64,000 nucleotides of DNA from Panopea generosa (taxonomy: Eukaryota; Mollusca; Bivalvia; Adapedonta; Hiatellidae): NCBI GenBank assembly GCA_029582155.1, contig CM055907.1, forward strand, positions 28,846,432-28,910,431, written 5' to 3'. Below, piece after piece: positions 25,249 through 52,400 of this stretch (position 1 is its first letter; the number at the start of each line of letters is the position of its first letter). Made by a program: the position numbers and the translations under genes. Under the pieces are notes generated by a model. That model was not told the DNA's origin. It made no database searches and saw nothing but the letters and a program-made list of their open reading frames with translations.

Positions 25249-25419
25249 ATTGCCAGTTTCCGTCTGTACCAAATGGAAAGTTTGTTGGCAATATGATTAC
25301 AGCGGGCTCTATATTAATGCTGGAATGCGACGATTCGTACGAAGCGGTAGGAAGTAACGTGTACATGACATGCTCACCGTCCACCCTACAGTGGCTTCCA
25401 ATCTTGAATTGCACGGAAG
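25249..25419 (+). CDS. Fibrinogen-related gene, exon 3: Sushi/CCP domain
   Basis: This 171-base exon has phase 1 at both ends, the usual arrangement for a shuffled extracellular module. It runs from acceptor ATTTCTAG to donor GTATGT. With the G from exon 2 it reads DCQFPSVPNGKFVGNMI, then LMLECDDSYEAVGSN, MTCSPSTLQW and PILNCTE. The four cysteines, the PNG after the first Cys, the G before the central YxxxG-like part and the Trp before the last Cys are the CCP signature (Cys1-3 and 2-4 pairs in the family). The domain is about 57 residues, the normal size. CCP modules bind proteins or glycans in complement-type and recognition molecules. Confidence 0.85.
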
Positions 25420-25548
25420 GTATGTGGTTCGGGAGCAGCCAAAGATTTTCTTTTTAAAATTTGTAATTTGCAGAACAGGCTGTCTCGATAGATCCGTTAC
25501 ATAGCAATGGGATTTGAGCACATGTGCGAACGATAATTATGATATTGT

Positions 25549-26320: not shown

Positions 26321-27306
26321 ATGGGTAATGGCATAAATTCATGGCGTGTGGCAATCGGTATGTTTCACAATTGCACAAGCGGAGTATTCGGGAGACTCAC
26401 TCTAAAATATAACCATTTGAAAGAGTTGTTTATGTTTCTTGAGTTTATATTTACCATCGCAGGTTTCTATTTCAAATTTACTTCTGTCTATTTTCAACAA
26501 AGTATTGTCAATCTCCAATGTGCTATGGTCATCCTGTTATTAGTCTTGATGTCAGGAGATGTTGAGACAAATCCCGGTCCCGACTTTACGGATACTGTGA
26601 ACATACTAGGTGCTATTTCAATTATCCATTTAAATATAAGGAGCATTATCCATAAATTTGATTTTATTTCCCAAAACTTTACTGATATTGACATAATGTG
26701 CTTTACTGAAACTCATCTTAACAACTTGGTACCTTCTGACGATCTAGTTATTGATAACTTTGACGGATGCATCTACAGAGAGGACTGTACTTCTCATTCG
26801 GGAGGTCTTTTAACTTATGTTTCAAAGACAATTATGTCGTAAAGACGTACGGATCTCGAAAGCACAGTAGTCCATGCAATATGGGTAGAGGTTTGTTACA
26901 AATCGTCTTCCTTTTTACTTTGTAATATATATCGTTCTCCAAATACACCAGTTTGTTTTTGGGAAAATTTTAATATTTCTATCGAACGTGTTCTCGAATC
27001 AAATTCCAATAGTGTCATTGTCGGTGACCTCAACCAAGATTTATTGAGCAAAAGAGACTGCCACTTACGTAACATTATCATCATAAATATCATGAAAAAT
27101 ATAATCGATAAACCGACACGAGTGACAGATACCTCAGCAACCTTACTTGACCCTATTATCATATCCGACAGTATACTACCTTTAACCTCTGACGTAATAG
27201 ACATTGATAGACGAGTTAGCGACCACAAAGCTACACTCTTAATAATAAAGTTTCACGATTACAAACAAACATGTTCAAAGCGAAAAATCTGGAATTACAA
27301 AAAAAG
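26321..27306 (+). pseudogene. LINE 5' part: 2A-like motif and APE endonuclease
   Basis: Residues 69-87 read MVILLLVLMSGDVETNPGP, with the 2A-like core at 26558-26581. In 2A sequences the ribosome skips the last Gly-Pro bond, so the N-terminal piece would be released from the enzyme part. The endonuclease follows with IHLNIRS, ETHL (catalytic Glu), YRSPN, GDLN (catalytic Asp and Asn) and SDH (catalytic His). A TAA at 26840-26842 interrupts it where Lys is likely, and the same frame then resumes. A frameshift occurs at an A run near 27300. Confidence 0.85.
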
Positions 27307-29733
27307 GTGACTATGAAACGTTAAACCGCATAATATCCGACCAAGACTGGGACTTTATTGAAGAACTTGACATAAATGACTCATGTTCACGATTTACAGA
27401 GACATTTCTATCACTTATGACTAAATGTATCCCATCCAAAGAAGTAACAATTCGATCTAATGACAAACCGTGGTACGACTCACAGTTACGAACAACTTCA
27501 AGACAAAGAGACAGACAAAAGAAAATAGCGACCAAAAGTACAAACCAAAAGGAACAAGGTTAACAACTTGAAAAAACATGCAAAAGAACGCTTTTTCAGC
27601 AACTTGGAACAAAATATTGCCACATCTCGGACAGACAATCCAAATCAATACTGAAAAATCTTAAGGAACTTGGTTAAAAATAATAGTAAATCCGAAACAA
27701 TCCCAATACTGAAAACAACACTTAACGACAGCTCCGACAATATATGTTTCTCAGACAATGAGAAAGCAAATTGTTTAAATGAGTTTATTTGCTCTATCTC
27801 TAACGTAGATGATAGAGGGTCAACCCTACCAGAACCGAGCATACGGACAAACAGAACAATTAACGACATAACTATATTAAAGAACGACATTGAAGATATG
27901 ATTTCTTGTTTAGGTATTAATAAAGCTGTAGGGCCAGACCTAGTAAGTCACAGAATTTTAAAACTAACCAAGGGTACAATTTCAAAACCTTTATGTATTT
28001 TATTTGATAAGTCTATTCGGGAGGAATCTTTTCCATGTAACTGGAAACATGCACTTGTTATGCCCCTTTATAAGAAAGGCGATTCATCGTGTGTTAGTAA
28101 TTACAGACATATTTTCCTGTTAAGTTGTATTGGTAAACTTATGGAACGTTGTGTGTATAAGTATATATATAATTACCTTATCTCTTATAATCTTATATAT
28201 TCTAGACAATCAGGTTTTTCAACTGGTCATTCCACTGTATACCAATTAATCGACATATACCACCAAATTGTTTATTCAACTGACTCTAAACTTAACACTT
28301 GTATGGTCTTCTGTGATATTTCTAAAGCATTCGACCGTGTTTGGCACTAAGGCCTTCTATTCAAAATGCAACAATACGGTATAAATGGCAAACTCTTAAA
28401 TTGGTTCAATAACTATCTTTCCGGTAGGAGCCAAAAGGTATTTGTCAGCACATCCTCTTCTCATACAATGTCCGTCAATGCTGGTGTACCGCAGGGGTCT
28501 GCCCTGGGTCCATTACTATTTCTAATTTACGTAAATGATATAGCAGCCAATTTATTAAGTCTTGCACGTTTGTTTGCAGATGACACTTCCTTAGCGAGCT
28601 CTGCTACAAATATATCAGATCTTGAAGGTATAATAAATCGCGATCTAGTTATGTTATCTGCTTGGTCAAAACAGTGGTTAGTTACGTTCAATCCCTTGAA
28701 AACTGAAGCAATATTATTCACATCAAAAAAAGTTCGTAATCCATCACTATTGTTTGAAAATATTCCTGTAACATTTGTTGAAAATCACAAACACTTGGGC
28801 CTTACAGTCAGTAATAATGGTTAATGGCACGCTCATATTGAAAACATAATACAGTCTGCATCCAAAATTCTTGGCATGATGAGAAAAGTTAAATTTGAAA
28901 TACGTAGGGACTTTCTTAATCAAATTTATATATCATTTATTCGCCCAATTTTTGAATACGCCTCGGTAGTGTGGGATAACTGTACCTCTTACGAGAATGA
29001 CAACTTAGAAAAAAATCAACATGAAGCTGCCAGAATTGTTACTGGCACAACAAGATCAATATCCATTTCAAAATTATATAAAGAAATTGGCTGGTTATCT
29101 CTGTCAGACAGAAGAAAGTATCAAAAATTGATATTGGCATACAAAATAAAACATGGTATGACACCAAACTTCTTAATAGATTTATTTCCCGATACAGTTA
29201 GTATTAGAACAACATACGATCTTAGAAACTCACAAGATCTTGATATCATTACCAGACGAACTGAGCTCTTTGCAAATTCTTTCATTCCATCAACAGTTTC
29301 GTTGTGGAATAAACTATCAGTTGCTTTAAGGGAAGCACCATCATTATCAATATATAAACGAAACCTTATAAATACTTGTTTTCATCCAGTTATAGTTCCA
29401 AAACACTTTAACTATGGTATACGAATATTATCTGCACAGCATGCAAGACTAAGAAATAATTGTAATAACTTAAATCATGATCTTTACGTTAATCATATAG
29501 AAAATTATCCAACATGTATCTGTACGCATGGAGTGGAAGATGTTGAACATTACTTTTTTAACTGCATTCTTTTTGTACAACAAATAATTAAATTATTTCA
29601 AATCACAAGGTTATTCCATCGACTCAATGTTAAAAAGCTGTTATATGGATCAGACGATCATTCATATGAAGACAACATAAATCTCTTCGAAAGTGTTCAA
29701 AATTTCATTCACGAATCCAGAAGATTCCAATAA
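27307..29733 (+). pseudogene. LINE 3' part: reverse transcriptase and C-terminal domain
   Basis: After the frameshift the linker continues to about 27555, shifts frame again, and then stays in one frame to the stop at 29731-29733. Nonsense codons occur near 27650 (TGA where Trp is expected), 28348 (TAA) and 28822 (TAA). RT landmarks are NKAVGPD, YRHIFLLSCIGKLMER, QSGFSTGHST, FCDISKAFDRVWH, AGVPQGSALGPLLFLIYVND, the catalytic ARLFADDTSL, and HLGLTVSNNG. The thumb and C-terminal part include RPIFEYASVVWD, EAARIVTG, LYKEIGWLSLSDRR and the Cys/His motif. It would reverse-transcribe the element RNA at a nicked target. Confidence 0.9.
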
Positions 29734-30130: not shown

Positions 30131-30404
30131 ACGCATGTATACTTTCTCATTAACTACACTTTATGTCACTCATATTGACTTGCCAGGAATGTAATATATC
30201 TTAACCATCGTTAAAAATTGCAAAATATAGTTGAAGGGGAATGGCCGAATCTTATGTTGAGAGAACTTGTGGCCAGATCCTTTTGCCTTAAATTGTATTT
30301 GACTTATATGCATGATAAATATTGTAATATGTGTTTATTTGGCAATAAAATATGTTTAAACTAAAACTAACAGACAGCGAATGTCCTTCATTGGGGTTAA
30401 TTAG

Positions 30405-32505
30405 ACATGATTCGGGAAATGTCAGGGTCTGGGATAGACATGATCCAGGAAATGTCAGGGGCTGGGATAGACATGATCCGGGAGATGTCAGGGACTGGGA
30501 TAGACATGATCCGGGAGATGTCAGGGACTGGGATAGACATGGTCCGGGAGATGTCAGGGACTGGGATAGACATGATCCGGGAGATGTCAGGGGCTGGGAT
30601 AGACATTATCCGGGGGATGTCAGGGGCTGGGACAGACATGATTTGGGAGATGTCAGGGACTGGGATAGACATGATTCGGGAGGTGTCAGGGACTGGGATA
30701 GACATGATTCGGGGGTTGTCAGGGACTGGGATAGACATGATTCGGAGGATGTTAGGGACTGGGATAGACATGATTCGGGGGTTGTCAGGGACTGGGATAG
30801 ACATGATTCGGGAGATGTCAGGGACTGGGATAGACATGATCCGGAAAGATGTCAGGGACTGGGATAGACATGGTCCGGGAGATGTCAGGGACTGGGATAG
30901 ACATGGTCCGGGAGATGTCAGGGACTGGGATAGACATGGTCCGTGAGATGTCAGGGACTGGGATAGACATGATTCGGGAGATGTCAGGGGCTGGGATAGA
31001 CATGGTCCGGAAAGATGTCAGGGACTGGGATAGACATGGTCCGGGAGATGTCAGGGGCTGGGATAGACATGATTTGGAAAATGTCAGGGACTGGGATAGA
31101 CATGATCCGGGAGATGTCATGAGCTGGGATAGACATGAGCCGGGAAATGTCAGGTGCTTGGATAGACATGATCCGGGAGATGTCAGGTGCTTGGATAGAC
31201 ATGATTCGGGAGATGTCAGGGGCTTGGATAGACATGATCCGGGAGATGTCAGGGGCTGGGATAGACATGATTCGGGAGATGTCAGGGACAGGGATAGACA
31301 TGATCCGAGAGATATCAGGGACTGGGATACACATGATTCGGGAAATGTCAGGGACTGGGAAAGACATGATTCGGGAGATGTCAGGGACTGGGATAGACAT
31401 GATTCGGGAGATGTCAGGGACAGGGATAGACATGATCCGGGAGATGTCAGGTGCTTGGATAGACATGACCCGGGAGATGTCAGGGGCTGGGATAGACATG
31501 ATTCGGGAGATGTCAGGGACAGGGATAGACATGATTCGGGAGATGTCAGGGACTGGGATAGACATGATTCGGGAGATGTCAGGGACTGGGAAAGACATGA
31601 TCCGGGAGATGTCAGGGACTGGGAAAGACATGGTCCGGGATATGTCAGGGACTGGGATAATCATGATTCGGGAGATGTCAAGAACTGGGATAGACATGAT
31701 TCGGGAGATGTCAGGGACTGGGATAGACATGATTCGGGAGATGTCAGGGACTGGGATAGACATGATCCGGGAGATGTCAGGGACTGGGAAAGACATGATC
31801 CGGGAGATGTCAGGGACTGGGATAGACATGATCCGGGAGATGTCAGGGACTGGGATAGACATGGTCCGGGAGATGTCAGGGACTGGGAAAGACATGATCC
31901 GGGAGATGTCAGGGACTGGGATAGACATGATTCGGGAGATGTCAGGGACTGGGAAAGACATGATCCGGGAGATGTCAGGGACTGGGATAGACATGGTCCG
32001 GGAGATGTCAGGGACTGGGATAATCATGATTCGGGAGATGTCAAGAACTGGGATAGACATGATTCGGGAGATGTCAGGGACTGGGATAGACATGATCCGG
32101 GAGATGTCAGGGACTGGGATAGACATGATCCGGGAGATGTCAGGGACTGGGAAAGACATGATCCGGGAGATGTCAGGGACTGGGATAGACATGATCCGGG
32201 AGATGTCAGGGACTGGGAAAGACATGATCCGGGAGATGTCAGGGACTGGGAAAGACATGATCCGGGAGATGTCAGGGACTGGGATAGACATGATCCGGGA
32301 GATGTCAGGGACTGGGATAGACATGGTCTGGGAGATGTCAGGGACTGGGATAATCATGATTCGGGAGATGTCAAGAACTGGGATAGACATGATTCGGGAG
32401 ATGTCAGGGACTGGGATAGACATGATTCGGGAGATGTCAGGGACTGGGATAGACATGATTCGGGAGATGTCAGGGACTGGGAAAGACATGATTCGGGAAA
32501 TTTGT
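30405..32505. repeat. 33-bp minisatellite, about 63 copies
   Basis: The unit contains GGGATAGACATGATTCGGGA and GATGTCAGGGACT. Being 11 codons long and free of stops in most frames, it creates very long open frames: about 640 residues with DRHDSGDVRDW on plus, 458 with MIREMSGTGID on plus, and 501 with MSIPVPDISRI on minus. The variant block TAATCATGATTCGG, GATGTCAAGAAC recurs at about 31657, 32020 and 32350, spacing 363 and 330 bp, so a block of 10-11 monomers was itself duplicated. It starts just after the LINE end. I do not call a gene. Confidence 0.97.
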
Positions 32506-32507
32506 TT

Positions 32508-32690
32508 TTAGACATTGCTGGGAGAGTAAGTTTACTATTTTCTTTACTTGTATGTGGTCTGTCTGTGTTTAGGCATTGCTGGGAGAGTAAGTCTACTATT
32601 TTCTTTACTTGTATGTGGTCGGTGTTTATACATTGCTGGGAGAGTGTCTACCATTTTCTGTACTTGTGTGTGGTTTGTGTTTTCGAGCAT
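32508..32690. repeat. About 63-bp direct repeat, three copies
   Basis: CATTGCTGGGAGAGT recurs three times (about 32513, 32572, 32632), each followed by TTTTCTTTACTTGTATGTGG or a variant. It directly follows the 33-bp array. Confidence 0.9.
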
Positions 32691-32981: not shown

Positions 32982-33121
32982 CCCGAGATGTGACCGACTG
33001 TTCCGACGTACTGGCGAGAGGTTATGGAAGCAATAGCGGAGGTTACAACATAACACTGCCGATCTCAGGAACACCGAAATACGTGTATTGTGACATGGAT
33101 ACAGATGGGGGCGGATGGACT
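32982..33121 (+). CDS. Fibrinogen-related gene, exon 4: start of the FReD
   Basis: This 140-base exon enters in phase 1, matching the Sushi exon, after acceptor TAATGATAG, and leaves in phase 0 at GTAAAT. It encodes DCSDVLARGYGSNSGGYNI, then VYCDMDTDGGGWT. The leading DC, the G-x-Y after the loop, and VYCDM followed by GGGWT are the hallmarks of the N-terminal part of fibrinogen C-terminal-like domains (ficolins, FREPs, tenascins). The two Cys form the first disulphide in the family. It is placed about 7.6 kb after the Sushi exon because of the LINE and the 33-bp array. Confidence 0.9.
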
Positions 33122-33862: not shown

Positions 33863-33959
33863 GTATTCCAAAACCGGTTTAATGGTGTTGTAGATTTCTT
33901 CAGACCGTTTGCAGATTATGTTAGCGGATTTGGAGACATTGATGGGGAATTCTGGATGG
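33863..33959 (+). CDS. Fibrinogen-related gene, exon 5: middle of the FReD
   Basis: This 97-base exon is in phase 0 to phase 1. It continues GGGWT with [20 protein letters not shown] and then [13 protein letters not shown]. The family pattern is WTVFQRR-x-DGSVDF-x-R-x-W-x-x-Y-x-x-GFG-x-x-x-GEFWLG, so the match is strong; the usual Trp in RxW is Phe-Ala here. The donor is GTAATT at 33960. The last 12 bases (AATTCTGGATGG) and the donor are the first copy of the 37-bp minisatellite that fills the next intron. If this donor is not used, translation adds only [12 protein letters not shown] and stops at 33998-34000. Confidence 0.92.
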
Positions 33960-36900
33960 GTAATTATACTGTCCCTGTATTCACTATTCTGGATGGGTAA
34001 TTATACTGTCCCTGTATTCACAGTTCTAGATGGGTAATTAAACTGTCCCGGTATTCACAATTCTGGATGTGTAATTATATTGTCCCGGTATTCACAATTC
34101 TGGAGGGGTAATTATACTGTCCCTGTATTCACAATTCTGGACAGGTAATTATACTGTCCCTGTATTCATAATTCTGGATGGGTAACTATACTGTCCCTGT
34201 ATTCAAAATTTTGGACGGGTAATTATACTGTCCCTGTATTCACAATTCTGGATGGGTAACCATACTGTCCCTGTATTCACACTTTTGGACGGGTAATTAT
34301 ACTGTCCCTGTATTCACAATTTTGGACGGGTAATTATACTGTCCCTATATTCACAATTCTGGATGGGTAACTATACTGTCCCTGTATTCACAATTTTGGA
34401 CAGGTAATTATACTGTCCCTGTATTCATAATTCCGGATGGGTAACTATACTGTCCCTGTAGCCACAATTCTGGATGGGTAACTATACTGTCCCTGTAGTC
34501 ACAATTCTGGATGGGTAAGTATACTGTCCCTTTATTCACAATTATGGATGGGTAATTATACTATCTCTGTATTCACAATTCTGGATGGGTAATTATACTA
34601 TCCCTGTATTCACATCTCTAGATGGGTAATTATACTGTCCCTGTATTCACAATTCTGTATGGGTAATTATACTATCCCTGTAATCACAATTCTGAATGGG
34701 TAATTATACTGTCCCTGTATTCACAATTCTGGATGGGTAATTATACTGTATAGGTATTCACAATTCTGGATGGGTAATTATACTGTCCCTGTATTCAAAA
34801 TTCTGGATGGGTAATTATACTGTCCCGGCATTCACAATTCTGGATGAGTAATTATACTGTCCCGGTATTCACAATTCTGGATGAGAAATTTATACAGTCC
34901 CAGTATTCACTATTCTGGATGGGTAATTATACTGTCCCTGTATTCACAATTTTGGATAGGTAACTTTATTGTCCCTGTATTCACAATTTTGGACGGGTAA
35001 TTATACTATCCCTGTATTCACAATTTTGGATGGGTAATTATACTGTCCCGGTATTAACAATTCTGGATGAGTAATTTATACTGTCCCTGTATTCACAATT
35101 CTGGACGAGTAAGTATACTGTCCCTGTATTCACAATTCTGGATGGGTAATTATACTGTCATAGTATTCACAATTCTTGACGGGTAATTATACTGTCCTTG
35201 TATTCACAATCCTGGATGGGTAATTATACTGTCCCTGTATTCACAATTCTGGACGGGTAATTATACTGTCCCTGAATTCATAATTCTGGATAAGAAATTT
35301 ATACTTTCCCATAAATCATAATTCTAGATGGGTAATTATACTGTCCCGGTATTCACATTTCTGGATGGGTAATTATACTGTCCTCGTATTCATAATTTTG
35401 GACGGGTAATAATACTGTCCCTGTATTCACAATTCCTGATGGGTAATTATACTGTCCCGGTATTCACAATTCTGGACGGGTAATTATACTGTCCCTGTAT
35501 TCACAATTTTGGATGGGTAACTATACTGTCCCTGTATTCACAATTTTGGACGGGTAATTATACTATCCCTGTATTCACAATTCTGGATGGGTAACTATAC
35601 TGTCCCTGTATTCATAATTTTGGACGGGTAATTATACTGTCCCTGTATTCACAATTCTGGATGGGTAACTTAACTGTCATAGTATTCACAATTTTGGATG
35701 GGTAATTATACTATCCTTGTATTCACAATTCTGGATGGGTAATTATACTGTGTCTTTATTCGCAGTTCTGGATGGGTAATTTTACTATCCCTCTATTCAC
35801 ATTTCTGGATGGATAATTATACTGTCCCTGTTTTCACAATTCTGGATGGGTAATTATACTGTCCCTGTATTCACAATGATGGATGGGTAATTATACTGTG
35901 TCTGTTTTCTAGATGACTAAATATACTGTTTCTGTATTCAAAATTTTAGATGGATAATTATATTGTCCCTGTATTCACAATTCTAGATGGGTAATTATAC
36001 TGTCCCTGTATTCACATCTCTAGATTGGTAATTATATTGTCCCTGTATTCAAAGATCTGGATGGGTAATTATACTGTCCCTCTATTCACAATTCTAGATG
36101 AATAATTATACTGTCCCTGTATTCACAATTCTAGGTGGGTAATTATACTGTCACTGTATTCACAATTCTAGAATGGTAATTATAATGTCCCGGTATTCAC
36201 AATTCTAGATGGGTAATCATACTGTCCCAGTATTTATAATTCTTGGTGGGTAGTTATACTGGCAACGAATTCACATCTCTAGATTGGTAATTATACTGTC
36301 CCTGGTTTCACAATTCTAGATGGGTAATTATACTGTCCCTGTATTCACAATTCTGGATGGGTAATTATACTGTCCCTGTATTTACAATTCCTGGTGGGTA
36401 ATTATAATGTCCCTGTATTTACAATTCTTGGTGGGAAATTATACTGTCCATGAATTCACATCTCTATATTTGTAATCATGCTGTCCCTGTTTTCACAATT
36501 CTAAATGAGTAATTATACTGTCCCTGTATTCACAATTATAGATGGGTAATAATACTGTCCCTGTATTCACAATTCTAGAATGGTTATCATTCTGTCCCAG
36601 TATTCACATCTCTAGATGGGTTATTATACTATCCCTGAATTCAAAGTTCTGGATGGGTAATTATACTTTCCGTGTATTCACATCTCCAGATGGGTTACTA
36701 TACTATCCCTGTATTCAAAGTTCTGGATGGGTAATTATACTATGCCTGTATTCAAAGTTCTGGATGGGTAATTATACTATCCCTGTATTCAAAGTTCTGG
36801 ATGGGTAATTATACTGTCCCTGTATTCACATCTCTAGATAGGTAATAATACTTTTCCTGTATTCACATCTCCAGATGGGTTACTATACTATCCCTGTATT

Positions 36901-39892
36901 CAAAGTTCTGGATGAGTATTTATACTGTCACGGTATTCACAATTCTGGATAGGTTATTATACTGTCCCTGTATTCACAATTCTGGATGGGTAATTATACT
37001 GTCCCTGTATTCACATCTCTAGATGGGTAATTATACTTTCCCTGTATTCACATCTCCAGATGGGTTACTATACTATCCCTGTATTCAAAGTTCTGGATGA
37101 GTATTTATACTGTCACGGTATTCACAATTCTGGATAGGTTATTATACTGTCCCTGTATTCACAATTCTGGATGGGTAATTATACTGTCCCTGTATTCACA
37201 TCTCTAGATGAGTAATTATACTGTTCCTGTATTCACAATTCTGGATGGGTTACTATACTATCCCCGTATTCAAAGATCTGGATGGGTAATTTTACTGTCC
37301 CTGTATTCACAATTATAGATAAGTAATTATACTGTCCCTGTATTCACAATTCTAGAATGGTAGTTATACTGTCCCTGTATTCACATCTCTAGATGGGTTA
37401 TTATACTGTCCCTGTACTCACATCTCTAGATGGGTTATTATACTGTCCCTGTACTCACATCTCTAGATCGGTAATTATACTGTCCCTGTACTCACATCTC
37501 TAGATGGGTTATTATACTGTCCCTGTACTCACATCTCTAGATGGGTAATTATACTGTCCCTGTACTCACATCTCTAGATGGGTAATTATACTGTCCCTGT
37601 ATTCACATCTCTAGATGGGTTATTATACTGTCCCTGTACTCACATCTCTAGATGGGTAATTATACTGTCACGGTATTCACATCTCTAGATGGGTTATTGT
37701 ACTGTCCCTGTTCTCACATCTCTAGATGGATAATTATACTGTCCCTGTACTCACATCTCTAGATGGGTAATTATACTGTCCCTGTACTCACATCTCTAGA
37801 TGGGTTATTATACTGTCCCTGTACTCACATCTCTAGATGGGTAATTATACTGTCACGGTATTCACATCTCTAGATGGGTTATTGTACTGTCCCTGTTCTC
37901 ACATCTCTAGATGGATAATTATACTGTCCCTGTACTCACATCTCTAGATGGATTATTATACTGTCCTTGTACTCACATCTCTAGATGGATAATTATACTG
38001 TCCCTGTATTCACGATTCTGGATGGGTAGTTAAATGTCTCTGTAATCAAAATTCTTGGTGGACAATTATACTGTCTCTGTTTTAACGTCTGTAGATGGGT
38101 ATTTATACTGTCCCTGTATTCAAATTTTGAGGATGGGTTATTATACTGTCCCTGTATTCACAATTTTGGATGGGTAATTATACTGTCTCTGTATTCAAAA
38201 TTCTAGATGAGTTATTATACTATTTCTTTATTCACATCGCTAGTTGATTAATTATACTGTCCCTGTATCCACAATGCTTGATGTGTAATTATACTGTCCC
38301 TGTATTCACAATGCTTGATGTGCAACTATACTGTCCCTGCATTTACAATGCTTGATGTGAAGTTATACTGTCCCTGTATTCACAATGCTTGATATGTTAT
38401 TATATTGTCCCTGCATTCACAATGTTTGATGTGTAATTATAATGTCCTTGCATTCACAATGCTTGATGTGTAATTATATTGTCCCTGCATTGACAATGCT
38501 TGATGTGTAATTATACTGTCCCTGTATTCACAATGCTTGATGTGTAATCATACTGTCCCTGTATTCACAATGCTTGATGTGCAATTATATTGTCCCTGCA
38601 TTCACAATGCTTGATGTGTAATTATACTGTCCCTGTATTCACAAAGCTTGATATGTAATTATACTGTCCATGCATTCACAATACTTGATGTGTAATTATA
38701 CTGTCCCTGTGTTCACAATGCTTGATGTGTACTTATACTTTCCCTGCATTCACAACGCTTGATAGGTAATTATACTTTCCCTGTATTCACAATGCTTGAT
38801 GTGTAATTACACTGTCCCTATGTTCACAATGCTTGATGTGTGATTATACTTTCCCTGCATTCACAATGCTCGATAGGTAATTATACTTTCCCTGCATTCA
38901 CAATGCTTGATGTGTACTTATACTTTCCCTGCATTCACAATGTTCGATAGGTAATTATTATACTTTCCCTGCGTTCAAACTGCTTGATGTGTACTTATAC
39001 TTTCCCTGCATTCAAAATGCTCGATAGGTAATTATACTTTCCCTGCATTCACAATGTTCGATAGGTAATTATACTTTCCGTGCATTCACAATGCTCGATA
39101 GGTAATTATACTTTCCCTGCATTCACAATGCTTGATGTGTACTTATACTTTCCCTGCATGCACAATGCTCGATAGGTAATTATTATACTTTCCCTGCGTT
39201 CAAACTGCTTGATGTGTACTTATACTTTCCCTGCATTCAAAATGCTCGATAGGTAATTATACTTTCCCTGCATTCACAATGTTCGATAGGTAATTATACT
39301 TTCCCTGCATTCACAATGCTTGATGTGTTATTATACTTTCCCTGCATTCACAATGCTCGATACTTAATTATACTTTCCCTGCATTCACAATGCTTAATAG
39401 GTAATTATACTTTCCCTGCATTCACAATGCTCGATAGGTAAATATACTTTCCCTGCATTCACACTGCTTGATAGGTCATTATACTTTCCCTGAATTCACA
39501 ATGCTTGATGTGTACTCATACTTTCCCTGCATTCACAATGCTTGATGTGTAATTATATTGTCCCTGCATTCACAATGCTTGATGTGTAATTATACTGTCC
39601 CTGCATTCACAATGCTTGATGTGTAATTATACTGTCCCTGTGTTCACAATGCTTGGTGTGTAATTATACTGTCCCTGTGTTCACAATGCTTGATGTGTAA
39701 TTATACTGTCCCTGTGTTCACAATGCTTGATGTGTTATTATACTGTCCCTGCATTCACAATGCTTGATGTGTAATTATACTGTCCCTGCATTCACAATGC
39801 TTGATGTGTACTTATACTTTCCCTGCATTCACAACGCTTGATAGGTAATTATACTTTCCCTGCATTCACAATGCTCGAGAGGTAATTATACA
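33947..39892. repeat. 37-bp minisatellite of about 160 copies, seeded on a splice donor
   Basis: The unit reads AATTCTGGATGGGTAATTAT followed by ACTGTCCCTGTATTCAC. The first copy spans the exon 5 end. Most copies keep GGGTAATTAT, the exon's own donor context. Three zones are visible: the founder type to about 37.3 kb, a CATCTCTAGATGGG type at about 37.4-38.0 kb, and a CACAATGCTTGATGTG / GCTCGATAGG type from about 38.25 kb, where ACTTTCCCTGCATT is common. Copies at the start of the array are diverged, while runs such as 37.38-37.98 kb are uniform. Confidence 0.95.
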
Positions 39893-40241
39893 ATGAATTC
39901 ATCTCAACTGGAGTGTGCAGTCCACCTAAAAATACATTATTCATTAAACATGTTTAATAACAGTGTGGTAATTATTACGTCTGTATGTTTACCTACGCGT
40001 CATAAGAACATGAGAAGCTGCATACTACAATACATTACAGACAGTTTTACAGTGCAATATACACTGTACATGTGACAAACGTCTAGCAATATTCACTAAA
40101 ATACACAAACAATCCTGTGTAACATATTAGGATATTTGTATTCCGGAAAAATAACAAAATGCTTTTGGAATATATGGAAATCTTCGTAGTGAATTTATTT
40201 ATTAAATTTAAAGTAATTGTTTCATTTTGAATATTAAACAT
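39893..40241. other. Unique intron sequence, no gene seen
   Basis: AT-rich sequence between two tandem arrays. A 60-codon open frame at 39893 has no recognisable features. Confidence 0.5.
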
Positions 40242-40598
40242 TGTATGTATGTATCACATAGACATTGTATGTATGTATCACATAGACATTGTATATGTAT
40301 CTTATAGGCATTATATGTATGTATGTATCACATAGACATTGTATGTATGTATCACATAGACATTGTATGTATGTATGTATGTATGTATGTATGTATGTAT
40401 GTATGTATGTATGTATGTATGTATGTATGTATGTATGTATGTATGTATGTATGTATGTATGTATGTATGTATGTATGTATTGTATGTATGTATGTATGTA
40501 TGTATGTATGTATGTATGTATGTATGTATGTATGTATGTATGTATGTATTGTATGTATGTATGTATTGTATGTATGTGTGTATGTGTGTATTGTATGT

Positions 40599-40658
<60 letters not shown>

Positions 40659-42770
40659 ATGTATGTATGTATCACATAGACATTGAATGTATGTATCACA
40701 TATACATTGTATGTATGTATCACATATACATTGTATGTATCGCACAGACACTGTATGTATGTATCACATGGCATTGTATTTGTGTATCACATAGACATTG
40801 TATGTATGTATCACATAGACATTGTATATATGTATCGCACAGACATTGTATGTATCGCACAGACATTGTATATATGTATCACATAGGCATTGTATGTATG
40901 TATCACATGACATTGTATGTATGTATCACATAGACATTGTATATATGTAACACATGGCATTGTATGTATGTATCACATGACATTGTGTGTATGTATCACA
41001 TAGACATTGTGTGTATGTATCACACAGACATTGTATGTATCACACAGACATTGTATATATGTATCACATAGGCATTGTATGTATTTATCTCATAGACATT
41101 GTATGTATGTATCACACAGACATTGTATGTATGTATCACACAGACATTGTATGTATGTATCACACAGACATTGTATGTATGTATCACATAGACATTGTAT
41201 GTTTGTATCACATAGACATTGTATGTATGTATCACATAACATTGTATGTATGTATCACATAGACATTGTATGTATGTATCACACAGACATTGTATATATG
41301 TATCACAGAGGCATTGTATGTATGTATCACATGACATTGTATGTATGTATCGCATAGACATTGTATGTATGTATCGCATAGACATTGTATGTATGTATCG
41401 CATAGACATTGTATGTTTGTATCGCATAGACATTATATGTATGTATCACATAGACATTGTATGAATGTATCACATAGACATTGTATGTACATGTATGTAT
41501 TACATAGACATTGTAAGTATGTATCACATAGACATTGTATGTACATGTATGTATCACACAGACATTTTATGTATGTATCACACATACATTGTATGTATGT
41601 ATCACACAGACATCGTATGTATGTATCACCCAGACAGTGTTTGTATGTATTTATCACACAAACATTCTATGTATTTATCACATAAACATTTTATGTACAT
41701 GTATGTATCACACAGACATTTTATGTATGTATGTATGTATGTATCACACAGATATTGTATGTATGTATCACACATACATTGTATATATGTATCGCACAGA
41801 CATTGTATGTATCACACAGACATTGTATATATGTATCACAGAGGCATTGTATGTATGTATCACATGACATTGTATGTATGTATCACATAGACATTGTATG
41901 TATGTAACACATGGCATTGTATGTGTGTATCACATGACATTGTGTGTATGTATCACATAGACATTGTATGTATGTATCACATAGACATTGTATGTATCAC
42001 ACAGACATTGTATATATGTATCACATAGGCATTGTATGTATTTATCTCATAGACATTGTATGTATGTATCACACATACATTGTATGTATGTATCACATAT
42101 ACATTGTATGTTTGTATCACATAGACATTTTATGTATGTATCACATAACATTGTATGTATGTATCACATAGACATTGTATGTATGTATCACACAGACATT
42201 GTATGTATCACACAGACATTGTATATATGTATCACAGAGGCATTGTATGTATGTATCACATGACATTGTATGTATGTATCGCATAGACATTGTATGTATG
42301 TATCGCATAGACATTGTATGTATGTATCGCATAGACATTGTATGTTTGTATCGCATAGACATTATATGTATGTATCACATAACATTGTATGTATGTATCA
42401 CATAGACATTGTATGAATGTATCACATAGACATTGTATGTACATGTATGTATCACACAGACATTTTATGTATGTATCACACATACATTGTATGTATGTAT
42501 CACCCAGACATCGTATGTATGTATCACCCAGACAGTGTTTGTATGTATTTATCACACAAACATTCTATGTATTTATCACATAAACATTTTATGTACATGT
42601 ATGTATCACACAGACATTTTATGTATGTATGTATGTATGTATGTATGTATGTATGTATGTATGTATGTATGTATGTATGTATGTATGTATCACACAGATA
42701 TTGTATGTATGTATCACACATACATTGTATATATGTATCACATAGACATTGTAGGTATATATCATATAGA
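40242..42770. repeat. TATG tetranucleotide array mixed with a 24-bp minisatellite
   Basis: Long pure GTAT runs lie at about 40364-40590 and 42626-42690, with a GT run near 40606-40640. Around them a 24-base unit CATTGTATGTATGTATCACA, TAGA recurs about 90 times, with 20- and 26-base variants (CGCACAGA, CACACAGA). A block with TTTATCACACAAACATTCTA occurs at 41650 and 42548, so a segment of about 0.9 kb was duplicated. Long Cys/Tyr/Val/Met or His/Thr/Tyr open frames across it are products of the repeat. Confidence 0.95.
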
Positions 42771-42892
42771 AGCAGTTATGATATTGCAGCTGGATTGCAT
42801 ACTGAAATTTAGACTAAATGTAAATATGGGAACTGTTGTGTTGAATAACTTATTTGTTTTATCCGTTAGATAACTACACCCGAATCTCAAAT

Positions 42893-43712
42893 TATCCATA
42901 AGTTGGACATGTGCGTATGTTTGCCATTATCCACTAGTTGGGCATGTGCGTATGTTCGCCATTATCCACAAGTTGGACATGTGCGTATGTTCGCCGATCT
43001 CAAATTATCCACTAGTTAGACCTGTGTGTATGTTCGCCGATCTCAAATTATCCACTAGTTGAACATGTGTGTATGTTTGCCGATCTCAAATTATCGATTA
43101 GTGGGACATGTGCGTATGTTCGCCATTATCCACTTGTTGAACCTGTGTGTATGTTCGCCGTTCTCAAATTATTCACTAGTTGAACATGTGTGTATGTTCG
43201 CCGGTCTCAAATTATCCTTAAGTGTGACATGTGCGTATGATCGCCGATCTCAAATTATCCATTAGTGGGACATGTGCGTTTGATCGCCGATCTCGAATTA
43301 TCCATTAGTTGGACATGTGCGTTTGTTCGCCGATCTGAAATTATCCATTAATTGGGCATGTGCGTATGATCGCCAATCTCAAATTATCGATTAGTGGGAC
43401 ATGTGCGTATGTTCGCCATTATCCACTTGTTGGACCTGTGTATATGTTCGCCGTTCTCAAATTATTCACTAGTTGAACATGTGTGTATGTTCGCCGGTCT
43501 CAAATTATCCTTAAGTGTGACATGTGCGTATGATCGCCGATCTCAAATTATCCATTAGTGGGACATGTGCGTTTGATCGCCGATCTCAAATTATCCATAA
43601 GTTGGACATGTGCGTTTGTTCGCCGATCTGAAATTATCCATTAATTGGGCATGTGCGTATGATCGCCAATCTCAAATTATCTTTTAGTTGGGCATGTGCG
43701 TATGATCGCCGT
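42893..43712. repeat. 43-bp satellite with a 35-bp short form, about 20 copies
   Basis: The long unit contains CATGTGCGTATGTTCGCCGA, TCTCAAATTATCCA and TAGTTGGA; the short form lacks the CGATCTCAA part. A block beginning CGATTAGTGGGAC recurs at 43094 and 43388, spacing 294 bp, so seven units were duplicated together. Confidence 0.93.
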
Positions 43713-44105
43713 CCGTGTATATGGAATTCACTGATAACTTTTAGAGAGCGATGGTCCTACCGTATTACAGCTGTGGCATCGGACATATATAAGGCCAACT
43801 GGGTCACACTCAGACCTGGAGCTGGCTGATAGAATTGTAGGAAAAGTGCGATTTTCATATTTTGATAGAGAAAATAAAAAAAAAGTCAGTTCACTCAATT
43901 TTCTATCTATTACAGTTTAAAAAATGACAACCCGGGCTTGTCATAACAGTCATAAAAATAAAAATAATGTAATTAATTTTATTTGAATGAATTTGTTTCT
44001 GCTCTAGTAGTCGAGTAACAGTAAGTACATGTGACAGCTATTGGCCAATGGTAAATGGTGACATGTATCGTTAGGTGGTTTAAAGGATGATAGAAGTTAT
44101 CTATC
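43713..44105. other. Unique intron sequence, no gene seen
   Basis: No repeat or supported open frame between the 43-bp and 40-bp arrays. Confidence 0.5.
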
Positions 44106-45147
44106 ATAATAAGTGACAATAAGTGACACGTGCTGTTTGGGCTATCCTATATCAGTCTCAGTGGCACGTGCTCTGTTTGGACTATCCTATACCAGTCTCA
44201 GTGACACGTACTCTGGTTGGACTCTCCTATATCAGTATCAGTCACACGTACTCTGGTTGGACTCTCCTATATCAGTCTCGGTGGCACGTGCTCTGTTTGG
44301 GCTATCCTATATCAGTATCAGTGACACGTACTCTGGTTGGGCTTTCCTATATCAGTCTAAGTAGCACGTGCTCTATTTGGGTTATCCTATATCGGTCTCA
44401 GTGACAAGTGCTCTGTTTGGGCTATCCAATATTAGTCTCAGTGGCACTTGCTCTGGTTGGTCTATCGTATATCAGTATCAGTGACACGTTCTCTGGTTGG
44501 GCTATCCTATATCAGTCTCAGTGACACGTGCTCTGTTTGGGCTATCCAATATTAGTCTCAGTGGCACTTGCTCTAGTTGGGCTATCGTATATCAGTATCA
44601 GTGACACGTTCTCTGGTTGGGCTATCATATATCAGTCTCAGTGACACGTGCTCTGTTTGGGCTATCCAATATCAGTATCAGTGACACGCACTCTGGTTGA
44701 GCTATCCTTTATCAGTCTCAGTGTCACGTGCTCTGTTTGGGCTATCATATATCAGTATCAGTGACACGTACTTTGGTTGGGCTATCCTATATCAGTCTCA
44801 GTGGCACGTGTTAATTTGGGCTATCCTATATCAGTCTCAGTGGCACGTGCTCTGTTTGGGCTATCCTATTTTAGTTTCAGTGGCACGTGCTCTGGTTGAG
44901 CTATCCTATATCAATTTCAGTAACACATGCTCTGTTTGGGCTACCCTTTATCAGTTTCAGTGACACGTACTCTGGTTGGGCTATCCTATATCAGTCTCAG
45001 TGGCACGTGCTCTGTTTGGACTTTCCTATATTAGTCTATGTGGCACGTGCTCTGTTTGGGTTTTCCTGTATCAGTTTCAGTGACACGTATTTTGTTTGGG
45101 CTTTCCTATATCAGTCTCAGTGACACATGCTCTGTTTGGGCTATATT
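44106..45147. repeat. 40-bp satellite, about 26 copies
   Basis: The unit contains CAGTCTCAGTGGCACGTGCT, CTGTTTGGGCTATCCTATAT. CACGTG (an E-box) occurs in many copies. Variants alternate TGCTCTGTTTGG and TACTCTGGTTGG, suggesting a two-unit (80-bp) higher-order pattern in parts. Confidence 0.95.
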
Positions 45148-46014
45148 TAATTTGCACGTAATGTTATTTCAAAATGAAATGAAATGAAAGACTTATTGAA
45201 TGAAAAACATATTATATCTTGTCTCTGTGATAGTAGGCAAAAATCGGACATCTCTTTCATTTTCATTTTTATCATACAAAATTATACTTATTTTTTAAAT
45301 TGGATTTTGAAATAAAGGTCGTTTAATAAAAAAAAATGGCCACCAGTAAACTTTTAATGGATAAGCTGGGCAAGTTTTAACACAATATTAGCATGCTATT
45401 TTTCTATGAACTGCAGTCTTAAACAAAGTTCAATTTTATTTGGAAAAAATGATAATATACGCAAAATACCATGCCCAATTACCCCACCCACTTTATCATG
45501 TTTAATAAAATCTTCGCTAATTTTTCCTTTCTTCATAATTTTTATTAGATTTATCATTACTTAACAAATGGAAACAGTTCTCTCCGGAGCCTCGGAAGAG
45601 GCGTTAAGCCGCCGGTCTTGTGTACAGAGAGAATAACTCGATGTACATTAAAAATCTCACTGAACTTCAGTTTTAAGCAGTAGTTCAATTACCCGTAAAT
45701 TTTTTATCTTTAATATCGTATTTTATAAGTAAAAAATAAATTCGATTTTTGATTTCTCTAAATCATTTCATCTATTAAAATGTATATCGCCTGCCGTGAA
45801 ACACCATTCATTCAGTCAGCCAATTATGCATTCATTCATATATATTTTTGTCTTTGTACAATATATCATAAAATCATATGTCTGCGACCGCTCTGTATTT
45901 ATACAAATCAATCAAGAAACTATTTACTCATTTTCATCGGCGACATTATCCATTGCTGCAAAGTTGAAACAACTTACTCCCCGACATTCACTTCAGGATT
46001 AAAAGCTGAATTTT
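45148..46014. other. Unique intron sequence, no gene seen
   Basis: AT-rich sequence. Two short overlapping open frames at 45780-46016 have no recognisable protein features. Confidence 0.45.
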
Positions 46015-46370
46015 GAGTTTTCATCGGGTGATGAAAAACATAAGGCCCGTTTAATGTTCGTGAATTTGACTTTTAATCCTTATATTTACATTCTATTTCC
46101 AAACTATTTTAGATAAAACTATAACGTTATTTTTGTAATTTTGATATCTAAAAAGCAAATTATACGCATTAATCCGCATAGCCAATATCATGGATGTAAC
46201 GTGACGTCTCGCCAGCAAAACAAAATCGTGCAACATATGAAATGCAAACGGGTCCTCTTTAGCACCGCCCAGCTGCAAGTGTTTTTCATTGGGAAATGAA
46301 ATGCAGTAAATCTGTATATATAGTTCATTTAGGGCGATTGCAGTGGGAATGTAAATATTGCACATTGGAG
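46015..46370. mobile_element. Dispersed repeat, copy B (long form)
   Basis: It shares ordered blocks with 11801-11960 (GTTTTCATCGGGTGA, AACATAAGGCC, GTTTAATGTTCG, CCGCCCAGCTGCAA, GTTTTTCATTGGG, ACATTGG). Between GTTTAATGTTCG and the GCAAACGGG block it carries about 170 extra bases absent from copy A. No coding capacity. It may be a MITE, with copy A an internal deletion. Confidence 0.7.
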
Positions 46371-46499
46371 AGCATTCAAGTCCGTGTTTCTTGCATATGC
46401 AGCGAGCATTTCTGCATAGATCACCTTAAGAAGTCTATTTGGTGCGTGTTGCCAGTCAGTCTGGATAGGAAGCATACGCCCATTTGATATTTTCCATCC

Positions 46500-47345
46500 C
46501 CATTCTTAAACGTTCAAATAATTCCCTGCCCATATTTGTTTCTGGTAGTATACTCTGTAACTATGGTATTTCGCAGCATTTTGGGTTGGTGGCAACTGTT
46601 CAGGATTTCCACATTTAATACTCTCTGCAACCTTTTGGAAGAACTTAGACATGTGTAAAGAACTTAAAGTATCTTCCTTTTTGCCATTAAAAAGAATAAC
46701 TAATGCTTTTTGGCCGGCTTCGCTAATGTCTTCACGAGATGAATCTCCTCGATAAAACGTGATTGAAGACTCTCGGAATTGTGCATCCATTGTAAATTAC
46801 TTGAGGGCCAGTCCTTTTCCTAAGCTATAAATCCTCGATGTTGTGTCGCAGCCGAGTAGCGCATGTATGAAAAGTATATTACTGCATGTTTCGGGACCTA
46901 ATAATACAGATTTGATGATATATGGCATCTACTGCGTGCAAATCTTGTACACACTGGATTCTAGCAAATACTATTTCACTCCAAGAGTCTTGTCTTTTAG
47001 CGCATACATCTGCTACCTTTCGTTGAAAGTCAAAGGTGCGAACGGGATATACATTTTTCATAGGTTTGTCATCAATGTTAGTGGATTTACTACAAAATAA
47101 ACACTCATTTTTAATTTTAAATATTTTTTCCGAACGAAGAACTCGCTTAACACTGCTTGTTGATTGACTTTCTTTTTCAAATGACAGTCGGCAGGTTTTG
47201 TGCACATATTGACCTGGTTGCAAAGTCATATTATCATTGGCTCCTTGCTAGCTCTATTGATACCCTCACAACCTTTGAACCTCAGTTTTAAAATATCGTG
47301 ACCATTTTCAAGACTTTCTGTACACAACGGGCATAGTCCATTCTT
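46500..47345 (-). pseudogene. Antisense relic of a Cys/His-rich invertebrate protein family
   Basis: On the minus strand, three linked pieces read in family order. Near 47330-47240 is CPLCTESLENGHDILKLRFK followed by GCEGINRASK. After a one-base shift, 47235-46879 reads MTLQPGQYVHKTCRLSFEKE, CLFCS, VADVCAKRQDSW and DLHAVDAIYHQIC. After stops, 46790-46506 reads QKALVILFNGKKED, LPPTQNAAKYHSYRVYYQKQ and IWAG. I recognise this order (Cys pair, VHxxCR, CxxC, DLHAxDAxYHxxC, KYHSxRVYYQxxxW) from large uncharacterised families in molluscs and cnidarians that behave like mobile or expanded genes. Function is unknown. The frame breaks and stops show it is dead. It lies antisense in the large FReD intron. 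Confidence 0.6.
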
Positions 47346-47969
47346 CTTTTAATGACTATAAACAACTTACAGAAAGATACTATCGTTCAATTGAATACCT
47401 TTATATAATATAATAACATTAATTGATACCGCGTCATTAATTGATACCGCGTATTAAACAGTAACAGAACAATGCTTCGTGAACAATACTGGATAACGAC
47501 AACTTTCAGAGAAACGTTAACTACTCGCGCCAGCAGTCGCCAGTGATAAGCTCGTTTCTGAATTGAACGCTGACATTTTTAAGCTGCATTTTATACTAAC
47601 AAAAAAACAAAAGTACTCAGATTGATAAATTTTCGTGAATAAATGATTGAATTTCTATTCGCGGAGCATTTTAATCCGTACAAAAGTAAACAATTCGATT
47701 AAATTACATAACAGTATGCCAAATTTAATGTTTATTAAAACCGAAAGTACAAAATATGTCACAGTATTCGGATAGTACAACTGTCCGAATTATGACCAAG
47801 AATAAAAGTACTTAAATGAGCTCCGATTTTGTCCTATTTTCATTTCTATGGTCAAATTAAGTAATGGTTTCAGAAACTGCAAAAACATTTTCTGTTGCAA
47901 TTAGTCCTAGGTTCATTTTATTTTTATCCATCTATGACAGTTTGTTTCACATTTTCTTGTTATAAATAG
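47346..47969. other. Intron end, no gene seen
   Basis: AT-rich unique sequence leading to the acceptor TTGTTATAAATAG at 47957-47969. Confidence 0.5.
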
Positions 47970-48119
47970 GTTTGGACAGTATACATGATATGACGTCGGG
48001 TGTGACGTCAGATCTGCAGATACAACTATTGGCTGTTAACGGACTCATTGCCACATTTACCTATGATAGGTTTTACTTGTCCGAAGGTCCGAAATATACA
48101 TTGCATTTCAAGCAAACTG
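47970..48119 (+). CDS. Fibrinogen-related gene, exon 6: FReD continuation
   Basis: This 150-base exon has phase 1 at both ends and joins the G of exon 5 across a 14-kb intron. It reads GLDSIHDMTSGVTSDLQIQL, then LIATFTYDRFYLSEGPKYTL, HFKQTG. The family pattern here is GLDKIHxLT, then LRVxLxDxxG, AxYxxFxVxxExxxYxLxVxGYxG, so both content and phase fit. The expected acidic/Asn residues of the LED-x-x-G part are replaced by LAVNG. The donor is GTAAGT at 48120. The C-terminal FReD third with the Ca-binding DxDxD, the Cys pair and the WW motif is not found with confidence downstream and may lie beyond the window. Confidence 0.88.
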
Positions 48120-49459: not shown

Positions 49460-52400
49460 ATGAGCGAAGATTTGGGCAAACTGCAATTTGCCTTGCAAAA
49501 AGCAGCACTGCATGGGTGGAAGGCAATTAAATTTCAAGTTTCATTGAGATGCAATAGTTTGAAGAGTGATTTTACTAAATGTGGTGCTACAGCAGCATAT
49601 ATAAAAGCCTCTGGCACGTCGCATGACGCGATTGCAAAGTTTTTTTTACCCGAGTGATGCTGCTCCTCAAGAGCACACCCCTGTCAAAATTTATGGAGAT
49701 GGCAATTGCTTTTATAGATCAATCTCTAAAGCGCTTTTTGGTCACGAAAACAGATATTCTGAGTCGGCATCAGTACAATATTTGAACTCGTTAAGAATAT
49801 AAAATTGTATGTCTCTCAAGAAACATACAACACAATGAGCTAATCGCAAACAGATTTACAGTATGTCATAGAATCATCTGTATCGGACGACGCTCTCGTT
49901 AATAAAAATTTGGAAAGGTGTCTCCAGAATGAGGTGCTAAAATCAATTAGAAATGGGGAATATTCTTCTATTGTACATTTCTTTGCAGCTGTAAATCTAA
50001 TAAATCGTCCAATATATAGCATTTACCCACTGGTTCAAAACATTGCTGTAAATAGAAGTGTACACAATCAAAGGAACGATCCAATTCCCCGACAGGATGA
50101 TCCCCCAGGTCCCCCTATCTATATTATGTGGACACATACAGAAACTTCTGATCTTGAAAACTGCAATCGAAACCACTTTGTAACATGTTTTCCAAATTCA
50201 CTCCTTAGTTCGAACGATGATGAGCCTCCTGTAAAAAATAAAAAATAAAACGGACCGATGACATCAATGAAACTGAAACTACAGCCAATGGTAGTAGGAG
50301 GACGGCGGCTTATACGGAAGAAACAAACCAGTCAGAGAGGACAGAAACGGGACAAAAACAGGAAAGTGGCGACAAGAATATTGCAGCAGACGATAAAGAA
50401 ACGGGTCACTCTGGAGAAAAAGACACGGATCCAAATCGTGAAAATAGGAATGATTTGGGTAAAATTGTCAATGGAACAATTGATTTATCAAATTTAGCAT
50501 CTGTAGAGAAAATACGCTTTGGAGAAAACCAGAAAAATCCAGATCTGTTTTTAAATATGAAGCCCCAATCTATTTCCAAAGGAAACGGAGATACGAAAAA
50601 GATTTTGTCTTTTCAAAGTTCATGGAAGAGACAGTATAAATTGGCTTACATATAACCATATTTTGATGGCGGTCTGTGTACTTGCTGCGTATTATTCCCT
50701 CAAAAGAGCTTGAAAAATAATAACACATTTGTAACAAGGCCATTCACCACATACAAAAAGACCCTTGGAAAACATTCCTCCCTCTCAAAACATGAAAGTT
50801 CCGAGTACCATAATATGGCAAGACTCGATTATCGAACGACCAAATCCATTCTTGAGAGGCCCACATCCTCCTTACCATACAAAATAAACAAACAGAGCCA
50901 GGCAATGACCGTAATTTCAAACTTTTGAGGGAAATTGTTCAGACAATAGTACTCTGCGGCAAACAGAACTTTTCACTCCGAGGACACCAAGATGATAACA
51001 CAAGCGATGCGTCAAATAAAGGAAATTTCCTTGCAATTTTACAGCTTTTACCAGAGTACGATGAAGAGCTTTAAAATCTTCACTTGGAAACTGCAAAAAA
51101 ATATGCAACATACACTAGTAAGACAATACAGAATGAGGTCATACAGATTGTTGCCAAATATATCAGAGACAAAATGATAGATATTCTTAAGAAAGGCAAA
51201 GATTTTTTCTCTGTTATGGCAGACGAAGTAACGGACAAATATACAAATAAGGAAATTTTGGTTATTTATTTGAGATTTCTGGATACGGGCAAAAAATCTG
51301 CAGTCATTAGGGAAGAGTTCTTTGACTTTATTCAGTTAAAAAGAACCACAGGTGAAGCTATAGCAGAGGATATAGTTGGAATGCTTCAAAGCAATGATAT
51401 TGCAGTAGATGCAATGCGTGGACAGGCTTATGATGGGACTGGATACGGGCAAAAAATCTGCAGTCATTAGGGAAGAGTTCTTTGACTTTATTCAGTTAAA
51501 AAGAACCACAGGTGAAGCTATAGCAGAGGATATAGTTGGAATGCTTCAAAGCAATGATATTGCAGTAGATGCAATGCGTGGACAGGTTTATGATGGGACT
51601 GCGGCTATGTCATCGAAAAAACAGGGTTGTCAAGGACGAATTAAAAGATTGAACAAGTTGGCCATCCACACTCACTGTCGAAGTCATGTTCTCAATCTTA
51701 GTATAGCTCCAGCATGCAAATTACCTCTAGTGAGATATATGATTGATAATTATCTCAGTGTTTCTTTTTTTTTTATCATTATCCTAAAAAACAATCGTTT
51801 CTTGAGCATATCCTTGAGGTTGAAGGCTCGGAATATGCGAAGAAAAAATTAGTTGGACTTTGTAAAACCAGATGGGTAGAGAGGCATGTGTGTTTTGACA
51901 CATTTTATCATCTCTACGGTTACATTGTCAAGTGCCTACATCGTATGTTGAATCCGTTGGGTGAAAGTAGCAATGAAGATTGGTCACGGGATAGACAGTC
52001 AAAGATAACAGCACACGGATTGCTCACATCACTGACAAACTTCGCGGTTTTGATTGCTTTTGTATGTGTAAGATATGTTCTTGACACAATAAAACCTCTG
52101 ACATTGAAGCTTCAAAAAAGAGATGTTGACATCTTTAAAGCTTGCAAAATGCTTGATCATCATGTCGAAAAATATCTGAAATACGTGAACATTGAATTTA
52201 AAACATGTTTCTCTAATGCCACACAAATTGCAAATGACATAGAAATAGAGATCAAAGTTTCTAGAACGTGTGCAAAACAACAGCATAGAGCAAATGTTAA
52301 CACAACAGAACCAAAGGAATATTTCAAGTCTACATTGGCCATTCCATTATTTGATTATTTACTCCAAGAGTTAAGATCTCGCTTCCAAACCGAAGATACA

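Follow-up and report, generated by a model that had tools for sequence, protein, structure and literature searches.

A 37-bp minisatellite spanning a splice donor of a FReD gene in the bivalve Panopea generosa, and arrays at other splice junctions of its genome

How does a gene come to carry some 160 copies of one of its own splice donors, and how might it still be spliced at the right one? The question is raised by a FReD gene in a 64,000-nucleotide (nt) stretch of the mollusc Panopea generosa (contig CM055907.1, positions 28,846,432 to 28,910,431 of the forward strand). This whole stretch is called the window below, and its own numbering is used. The genome comprises 1.474 Gb in 39 contigs, and the locus lies on the one labelled C14. 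Exon 5 of the gene runs directly into a tandem array whose 37-bp unit is made of the end of the exon and the start of the intron. In lancelets, tandem repeats that span exon-intron boundaries are known as mirages; published work, including PMC3902484, describes them in Adh3, the globin genes BflGb6 and BflGb9, and troponin C, with similar repeats in PGBD5. Here we describe the mollusc array, its origin from the exon end, the putative donors that it sets behind the real one, and the occurrence of other such arrays at sampled junctions of the same genome.

Structure of the array

The exon, the intron and the array are placed as follows, with a slash marking each splice junction.

33863..33959, + strand: FReD exon 5 (VFQNRF...GEFWM-G) with a phase-1 donor, TGG/GTAATT, at a junction position common to six multi-exon paralogs.
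33948..33984, + strand: copy 1 of the 37-bp unit, formed by the last 12 nt of exon 5 and the first 25 nt of the intron, with 0 differences from the array consensus.
33948..39891, + strand: mirage-type minisatellite, 37 bp x 160.6 copies, GT in 144/161 units, from Tandem Repeats Finder (TRF), the unit split and a genome-wide match only here.
33960..47969, + strand: intron 5, about 14.0 kb, which holds the 37-bp array and others; exon 6 beyond it was located by tblastn with paralog exons.

TRF reported a period of 37 with 85% matches over a span of 5.9 kb, and wrap-around alignment divided the array into 161 units, the final one partial and followed by unrelated sequence. The array starts 12 nt within exon 5. 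Its first copy reads AATTCTGGATGG followed by GTAATTATACTGTCCCTGTATTCAC and matches the consensus at 37/37 positions; AATTCTGGATGG comprises the 12 last coding bases of the exon, and the 25 intronic nt begin GTAATT. These results agree with the original prediction, which had described a 37-bp minisatellite of about 160 copies overlapping the end of exon 5 and its donor. It had also stated that most copies hold GTAATT, and this is so by a modest majority (91/161, 57%). Unit subtypes shift along the array; AATTCTGGATGG is the form on the exon side, ATCTCTAGATGG that of the middle and AATGCTTGATGT that of the distal end. The unit alignment also revealed multi-unit blocks repeated inside the array.

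Origin of the array

Matching the intronic 25-mer of the unit against the 1.47-Gb genome gave 132 matches at three or fewer mismatches, with 0 on the reverse strand and 0 for a backwards control. The window count of the same 25-mer is also 132, every one inside the 37-bp array, and the unit is therefore confined to the FReD locus.

We compared the junction with those of other FReD genes. Six of the seven multi-exon paralogs fetched had a readable junction, among them L040, which has a stop in the exon end; L044 showed no exon-5 junction within the 3 kb fetched. In 6/6 readable cases the intron interrupts the same glycine codon in phase 1, preceded by EFWL or EYWL, and each gene has one donor. 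The nearest paralog, L062 (77% exon-5 identity), likewise has a single donor, with no array at it. Intronless FReD paralogs, of which ten were displayed, continue through this position as EFWLGN or similar. The mean number of mismatches to 14 distinct 12-mers from paralog exon ends is 3.5 for copy 1, 4.09 for copies 2-25 and 5.62 for copies 136-160, and divergence of the 12-mer is correlated with array position (rank correlation, rho 0.64, over units that are not independent). Because the unit is bound to this locus, the paralogs have single donors and the exon-proximal copies are nearest to the paralog exon ends, the array must have grown from the exon into the intron.

On these sequence comparisons, the 37-bp array was almost certainly seeded by the end of FReD exon 5. 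The original prediction had proposed this seeding, and the uniqueness of the unit in the genome, the paralog comparison and the polarity of the copies all uphold it. Were the array instead to have arisen elsewhere, or deeper in the intron, its resemblance to the exon end would be a coincidence. Such an origin would fit the distal subtypes such as AATGCTTGATGT, which barely resemble the exon, yet we give it next to no chance, as copy 1 is contiguous and identical to the consensus, the unit is absent from the rest of the genome and the copies show polarity toward the paralog exons. Exaptation of the exon from a pre-existing array was also considered, and it was rejected on the presence of the unit only at the FReD locus and on the exon-to-intron polarity. 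The array shows three features of a mirage: its unit spans an exon-intron boundary (12 exonic and 25 intronic nt), its repeats contain splice signals (the GT counted above) and it formed in place from the boundary of its own gene, as indicated by genome uniqueness and the single-donor paralogs.

The gene and its reading frame

Three further features bear on the product of the gene.

32982..33121, + strand: FReD exon 4 (RDVTDCSD...GGGWT), donor ACT/GTAAAT, from the sequence, Pfam on the joined exons and an exon match in a search of the own genome.
47970..48119, + strand: FReD exon 6 (LDSIHDMTSG...), acceptor AATAG/GTTTGG and donor CTG/GTAAGT, from tblastn with paralog exons, matched again in the own-genome search.
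33998..34000, + strand: in-frame TAA included in predicted transcripts spliced from donor copy 3 or any copy after it, from frame reading of the joins.

Exon 7 (L039) was placed about 5 kb past the end of the window by profile search and joined-exon analysis. Exon 5 is real, because exons 4-5-6-7 joined via donor 1 match Fibrinogen_C (PF00147) at 1.2e-52, over positions 3-219 of the 221 in the profile. The score of the joined exons, 179.4 bits against a curated cut-off of 22, identifies the product as a FReD, and the frame through donor 1 is full and open, with no stop. With the exon-proximal donor, exon 5 is 97 nt long. The FReD family is large in this genome (150 scored profile matches).

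Upstream of the FReD exons, we observed a PAN-like piece at window positions 23545-23800, which scored below cut-off, and a Sushi piece at 25270-25450 (1.4e-05). Together with the FReD exons, these pieces perhaps belong to one multidomain gene.

Later donors are predicted to spoil the open frame. Use of copy 2 would add 37 nt and, without including the TAA at 33998, shift the frame and lead to a stop in exon 6. Copies 4, 7 and 10 keep the phase of exon 6, yet joins from them include the TAA. All of the later donors tried (copies 2, 3, 4, 5, 7 and 10) break the protein in the predicted joins (6/6). The original prediction that any later donor would add the stop at 33998 is therefore false for copy 2, which frameshifts instead.

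Strength and retention of the decoy donors

The exact donor 9-mer TGGGTAATT occurs in 43/161 units, copy 1 among them. We scored every copy, as had been suggested along with the original claim that the array offers many donor look-alikes. The claim holds, and some of the copies exceed the real donor in their match to U1. Among the 143 later copies with GT, the U1 duplex is stronger than that of the real donor (-6.3 kcal/mol) in 29, equal in 45 and weaker in 69. By fixed-register consensus match, 27 of the 160 later copies score higher than the real donor and 88 score at least equal to it.

GT is retained in 24/24 of copies 2-25 and in 118/135 of copies 26-160. The AC at unit positions 21-22 gives 23/24 and 122/135 for the same two groups, and the G and T of the donor rank 17th and 11th among the 37 unit positions for retention. 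Retention of GT thus looks ordinary for the unit, with neither decay nor protection visible and no visible selection. Selection against near decoys was considered and rejected on the intact GT in all of copies 2-25; selection for decoys was rejected on the ranks of the G and the T.

Arrays at other splice junctions

Arrays lie over the donor at 6/32 of the exon-5 junctions examined, namely those of the query gene and of five paralogs on contig C11. The five (L084, L085, L086, L087 and L088; L085 at C11:13237289-13241500) carry an unrelated 53-bp donor unit, which differs from the 37-bp unit in sequence as well as length, in 7.3, 8.3, 8.3, 8.4 and 64.3 copies. Copy number therefore spans 7.3 to 64.3 across five gene duplicates, a range among paralogs within a single haplotype. 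The 53-bp unit is also bound to its loci, with 71/72 genome matches in the five C11 introns and one stray. Array-free relatives exist for both the 37-bp and the 53-bp cases. On a tree of exon 5, with its bootstrap unsettled, well-supported branches require two or more changes, and gains and losses are indistinguishable.

Arrays were also found at another FReD donor and at a FReD acceptor. In 1/22 exon-4 rows, L091 (C19:31329790-31330440, 1-200), a 50-bp unit is repeated 2.4 times over the exon-4 donor, copying about 41 exon nt; the extra exon copies have TAG in place of the GAG of the exon, which is a stop in the exon frame. This array is a nascent case. One of the exon-4 rows, that of L062, was misparsed. 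Among 21 exon-5 acceptor rows, one (L121) has a 33-bp unit in 4.0 copies that repeats the tract, the AG and the start of the exon.

A separate observation concerns L092 (C14:31863880-31864530), in which a 50-bp array starts 69 bp past the exon 4 donor. It does not touch the exon, and its consensus has a strong donor-like site, GGTGAGT.

Such arrays are present in myosin genes as well. In a control sample of 36 myosin exons with 72 flanks, the search picked out five arrays close to a junction, of which four were confirmed by eye; the fifth, near the acceptor of L163, was left uncounted, its match being ambiguous by eye. Two of the four lie at donors (L131, 41 bp x 5.2; L141, 34 bp x 5.2, with CAG/GTAAGC repeated) and two at acceptors (L134, 44 bp x 5.2; L140, 60 bp x 2.6). 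The second copy at L141 has the same CAG/GTAAGC as the real donor, and the site in the last copy is better. The idea that these arrays are peculiar to FReD genes is ruled out by the myosin cases. A lancelet source for the window was also weighed, since mirages are known there. One muscle myosin exon of the genome scores highest on PDB chains of squid and scallop (154 to 145.6 bits, followed by 127, 124 and about 116), and a second exon favours scallop chains by just 1-2 bits and ranks squid beneath several human chains. A search for the GFP family, of a type that does not prove absence, gave no match, and a COX1 search aimed at a mitochondrial contig gave none either. The myosin comparison points to a mollusc.

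Frequency of arrays at junctions

We compared junctions with free intron positions in a test that omits the query gene, since it prompted the search, and that scores the five 53-bp paralogs as one birth. There were 7 births in 139 junction lineages (about 5%) and 75 arrays at 3327 free intron positions (2.3%), a background in which positions on one flank are non-independent; the expected number at junctions was 3.1 (p 0.039). With the 12 kinesin junctions included, p was 0.056. When sub-arrays were left unmerged, the counts were 6/139 and 22/712 shifted positions (p 0.30), a comparison in which higher-order periods add arrays to the shifted set. The myosin and kinesin junctions in these counts are ends of profile matches, with hand correction confined to the four positives, and some may not be true junctions.

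Several sampled junctions thus bear locus-bound arrays, with p 0.04 at best for a preference for junctions. Splice-site arrays occur near the frequency of chance births, or perhaps at twice that frequency, which is at most a weak excess and not a firm one. We regard it as doubtful that minisatellites in this mollusc genome arise or survive preferentially at splice junctions, at about twice the free-intron rate. The frequent arrays at junctions are not strange, because tandem arrays with a period of at least 15 make up 42.1% of the window (union of 80 TRF rows).

Two other observations were made in the window. At 32502-32678, a 61-bp unit is present in three copies with an acceptor-like TTTAG and a donor-like site, GAGAGTAAGT; it adjoins a 33-bp array at 30402-32498. 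At 26843-28818 and 51750-52892 are LINE-like (long interspersed nuclear element) reverse transcriptase pieces (RVT_1, with an endonuclease match below cut-off) and the C-terminal region of a hAT transposase (Dimer_Tnp_hAT).

Discussion

We propose that the array is a mirage-type minisatellite that was born neutrally across a splice junction and is tolerated because the exon-proximal site wins, and we put the probability of this explanation at roughly 0.8. A 37-bp segment over the donor of exon 5 and intron 5 was tandemly duplicated within the lineage of this gene, as the uniqueness of the unit and the array-free paralogs indicate. Slippage or unequal exchange would then have expanded the array into the intron, consistent with its multi-unit block duplications and diverged subtypes. 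Selection on the protein would hold the exon-side copy, so that growth could proceed only intronward, and the decoy donors would be by-products under no visible selection. The exon-proximal donor would most likely be chosen by exon definition, giving the normal 97-nt exon, and a similar choice may operate at donors and acceptors alike. Copies 2 to about 6 would be misused at a low level, and surveillance would remove the frameshifted or stopped transcripts predicted from them. The same process has struck the other sampled FReD and myosin junctions, at donors as well as acceptors.

Some results weigh against this explanation. Copy 16, TGGGTAAGT, contains GTAAGT and has a U1 energy of -12.2, as against -6.3 for the real donor, and copy 6, CAGGTAATT, has a consensus match of 8/9, as against 6/9. 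If the array were purely silent, decoys that pair with U1 so much better than the real donor would perhaps not be expected to persist in it. In addition, the kinesin sample (six exons) had an array at 0/12 junctions.

Better-matched decoys could point to a function. Repeated donors might hold U1, or might send a fixed share of the transcripts into stop-containing forms and so tune the amount of a recognition protein. Such a role could be read from the intact GT in the 24 copies nearest the first, from the 29 of 143 later GT copies that out-pair the real donor with U1, and from human IFI6, which reportedly uses downstream repeat units as donors (PMC4526556). We nevertheless consider a splice-control element very improbable, since the GT is kept no better than other unit positions, none of the later donors tried leaves the protein intact, the nearest paralog has no array and comparable arrays are present in myosin genes. 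The myosin arrays also speak against the array being a mildly harmful accident, which the machinery misreads at a real cost (noisy splicing or partial loss of function) while it drifts in a redundant family. So do the full, open and stop-free Fibrinogen_C domain and the lancelet RT-PCR (reverse transcription PCR), which reportedly showed no disturbance. Since equal or better decoys lie close enough to yield an exon of ordinary size (37 to 185 nt longer for copies 2-6) and the gene family is of the size given above, some cost is conceivable, and we judge this account unlikely.

The kind of array is already known. The original prediction had named no described case, whereas both the lancelet mirages and human IFI6 had been described. 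For the mirages, published work, including PMC3902484, reports regular splicing by RT-PCR, proposes a role in intron gain and gives copy numbers of 6 and 3 for the haplotypes of BflGb6 and, for PGBD5, a triplication. The published RT-PCR suggests, by analogy, that such arrays need not disturb splicing. Compared with these cases, ours is in a mollusc, has about 160 copies over 5.9 kb and comes with a sampled rate per junction; the comparison covers the lancelet copy numbers just given and leaves those of Adh3 outside it.

The minisatellite of human IFI6 (6-16) is said to have been described with multiple splice donor sites by Turri et al. in 1995, and Zhuo et al. in 2007 reportedly described introns derived from tandem arrays. 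IFI6 resembles the present case in having a minisatellite that supplies several donors. It differs in that its 12-bp unit preserves the frame and its variants are coding, whereas the 37-bp unit breaks the frame and its decoys are only putative donors. In IFI6, two downstream repeat units serve as donors and give three mRNA species, according to PMC4526556. In human segmental-duplication genes, internal tandem repeats at exon-intron boundaries alter splicing patterns (PMC2812944). The repeats in those genes and in Zhuo et al. form new introns, whereas here an old intron gained an array and its position is unchanged. Literature searches directed at mirages and bivalves, with subscription papers mostly outside their coverage, found no earlier splice-site minisatellite in a mollusc. 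What is added here is the large number of copies and the occurrence in a mollusc.

Competition between splice sites is often studied with engineered minigenes. The arrays described here provide graded natural experiments in splice-site choice, with about 2.4, 7-9, 64 and 160 donor copies behind the real one. The acceptor arrays ahead of exons, and the decoys of the myosin L141, which equal the real site in consensus match, provide further natural tests. Such arrays could reveal how exon definition selects the exon-proximal site among near-identical competitors. With them, the birth of tandem repeats across junctions can be measured outside chordates as a route by which new splice sites arise. 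If the preference for junctions were true, mirages would form a genome-wide class beyond chordates, one that continually supplies alternative splice sites and changes in exon boundaries and introns.

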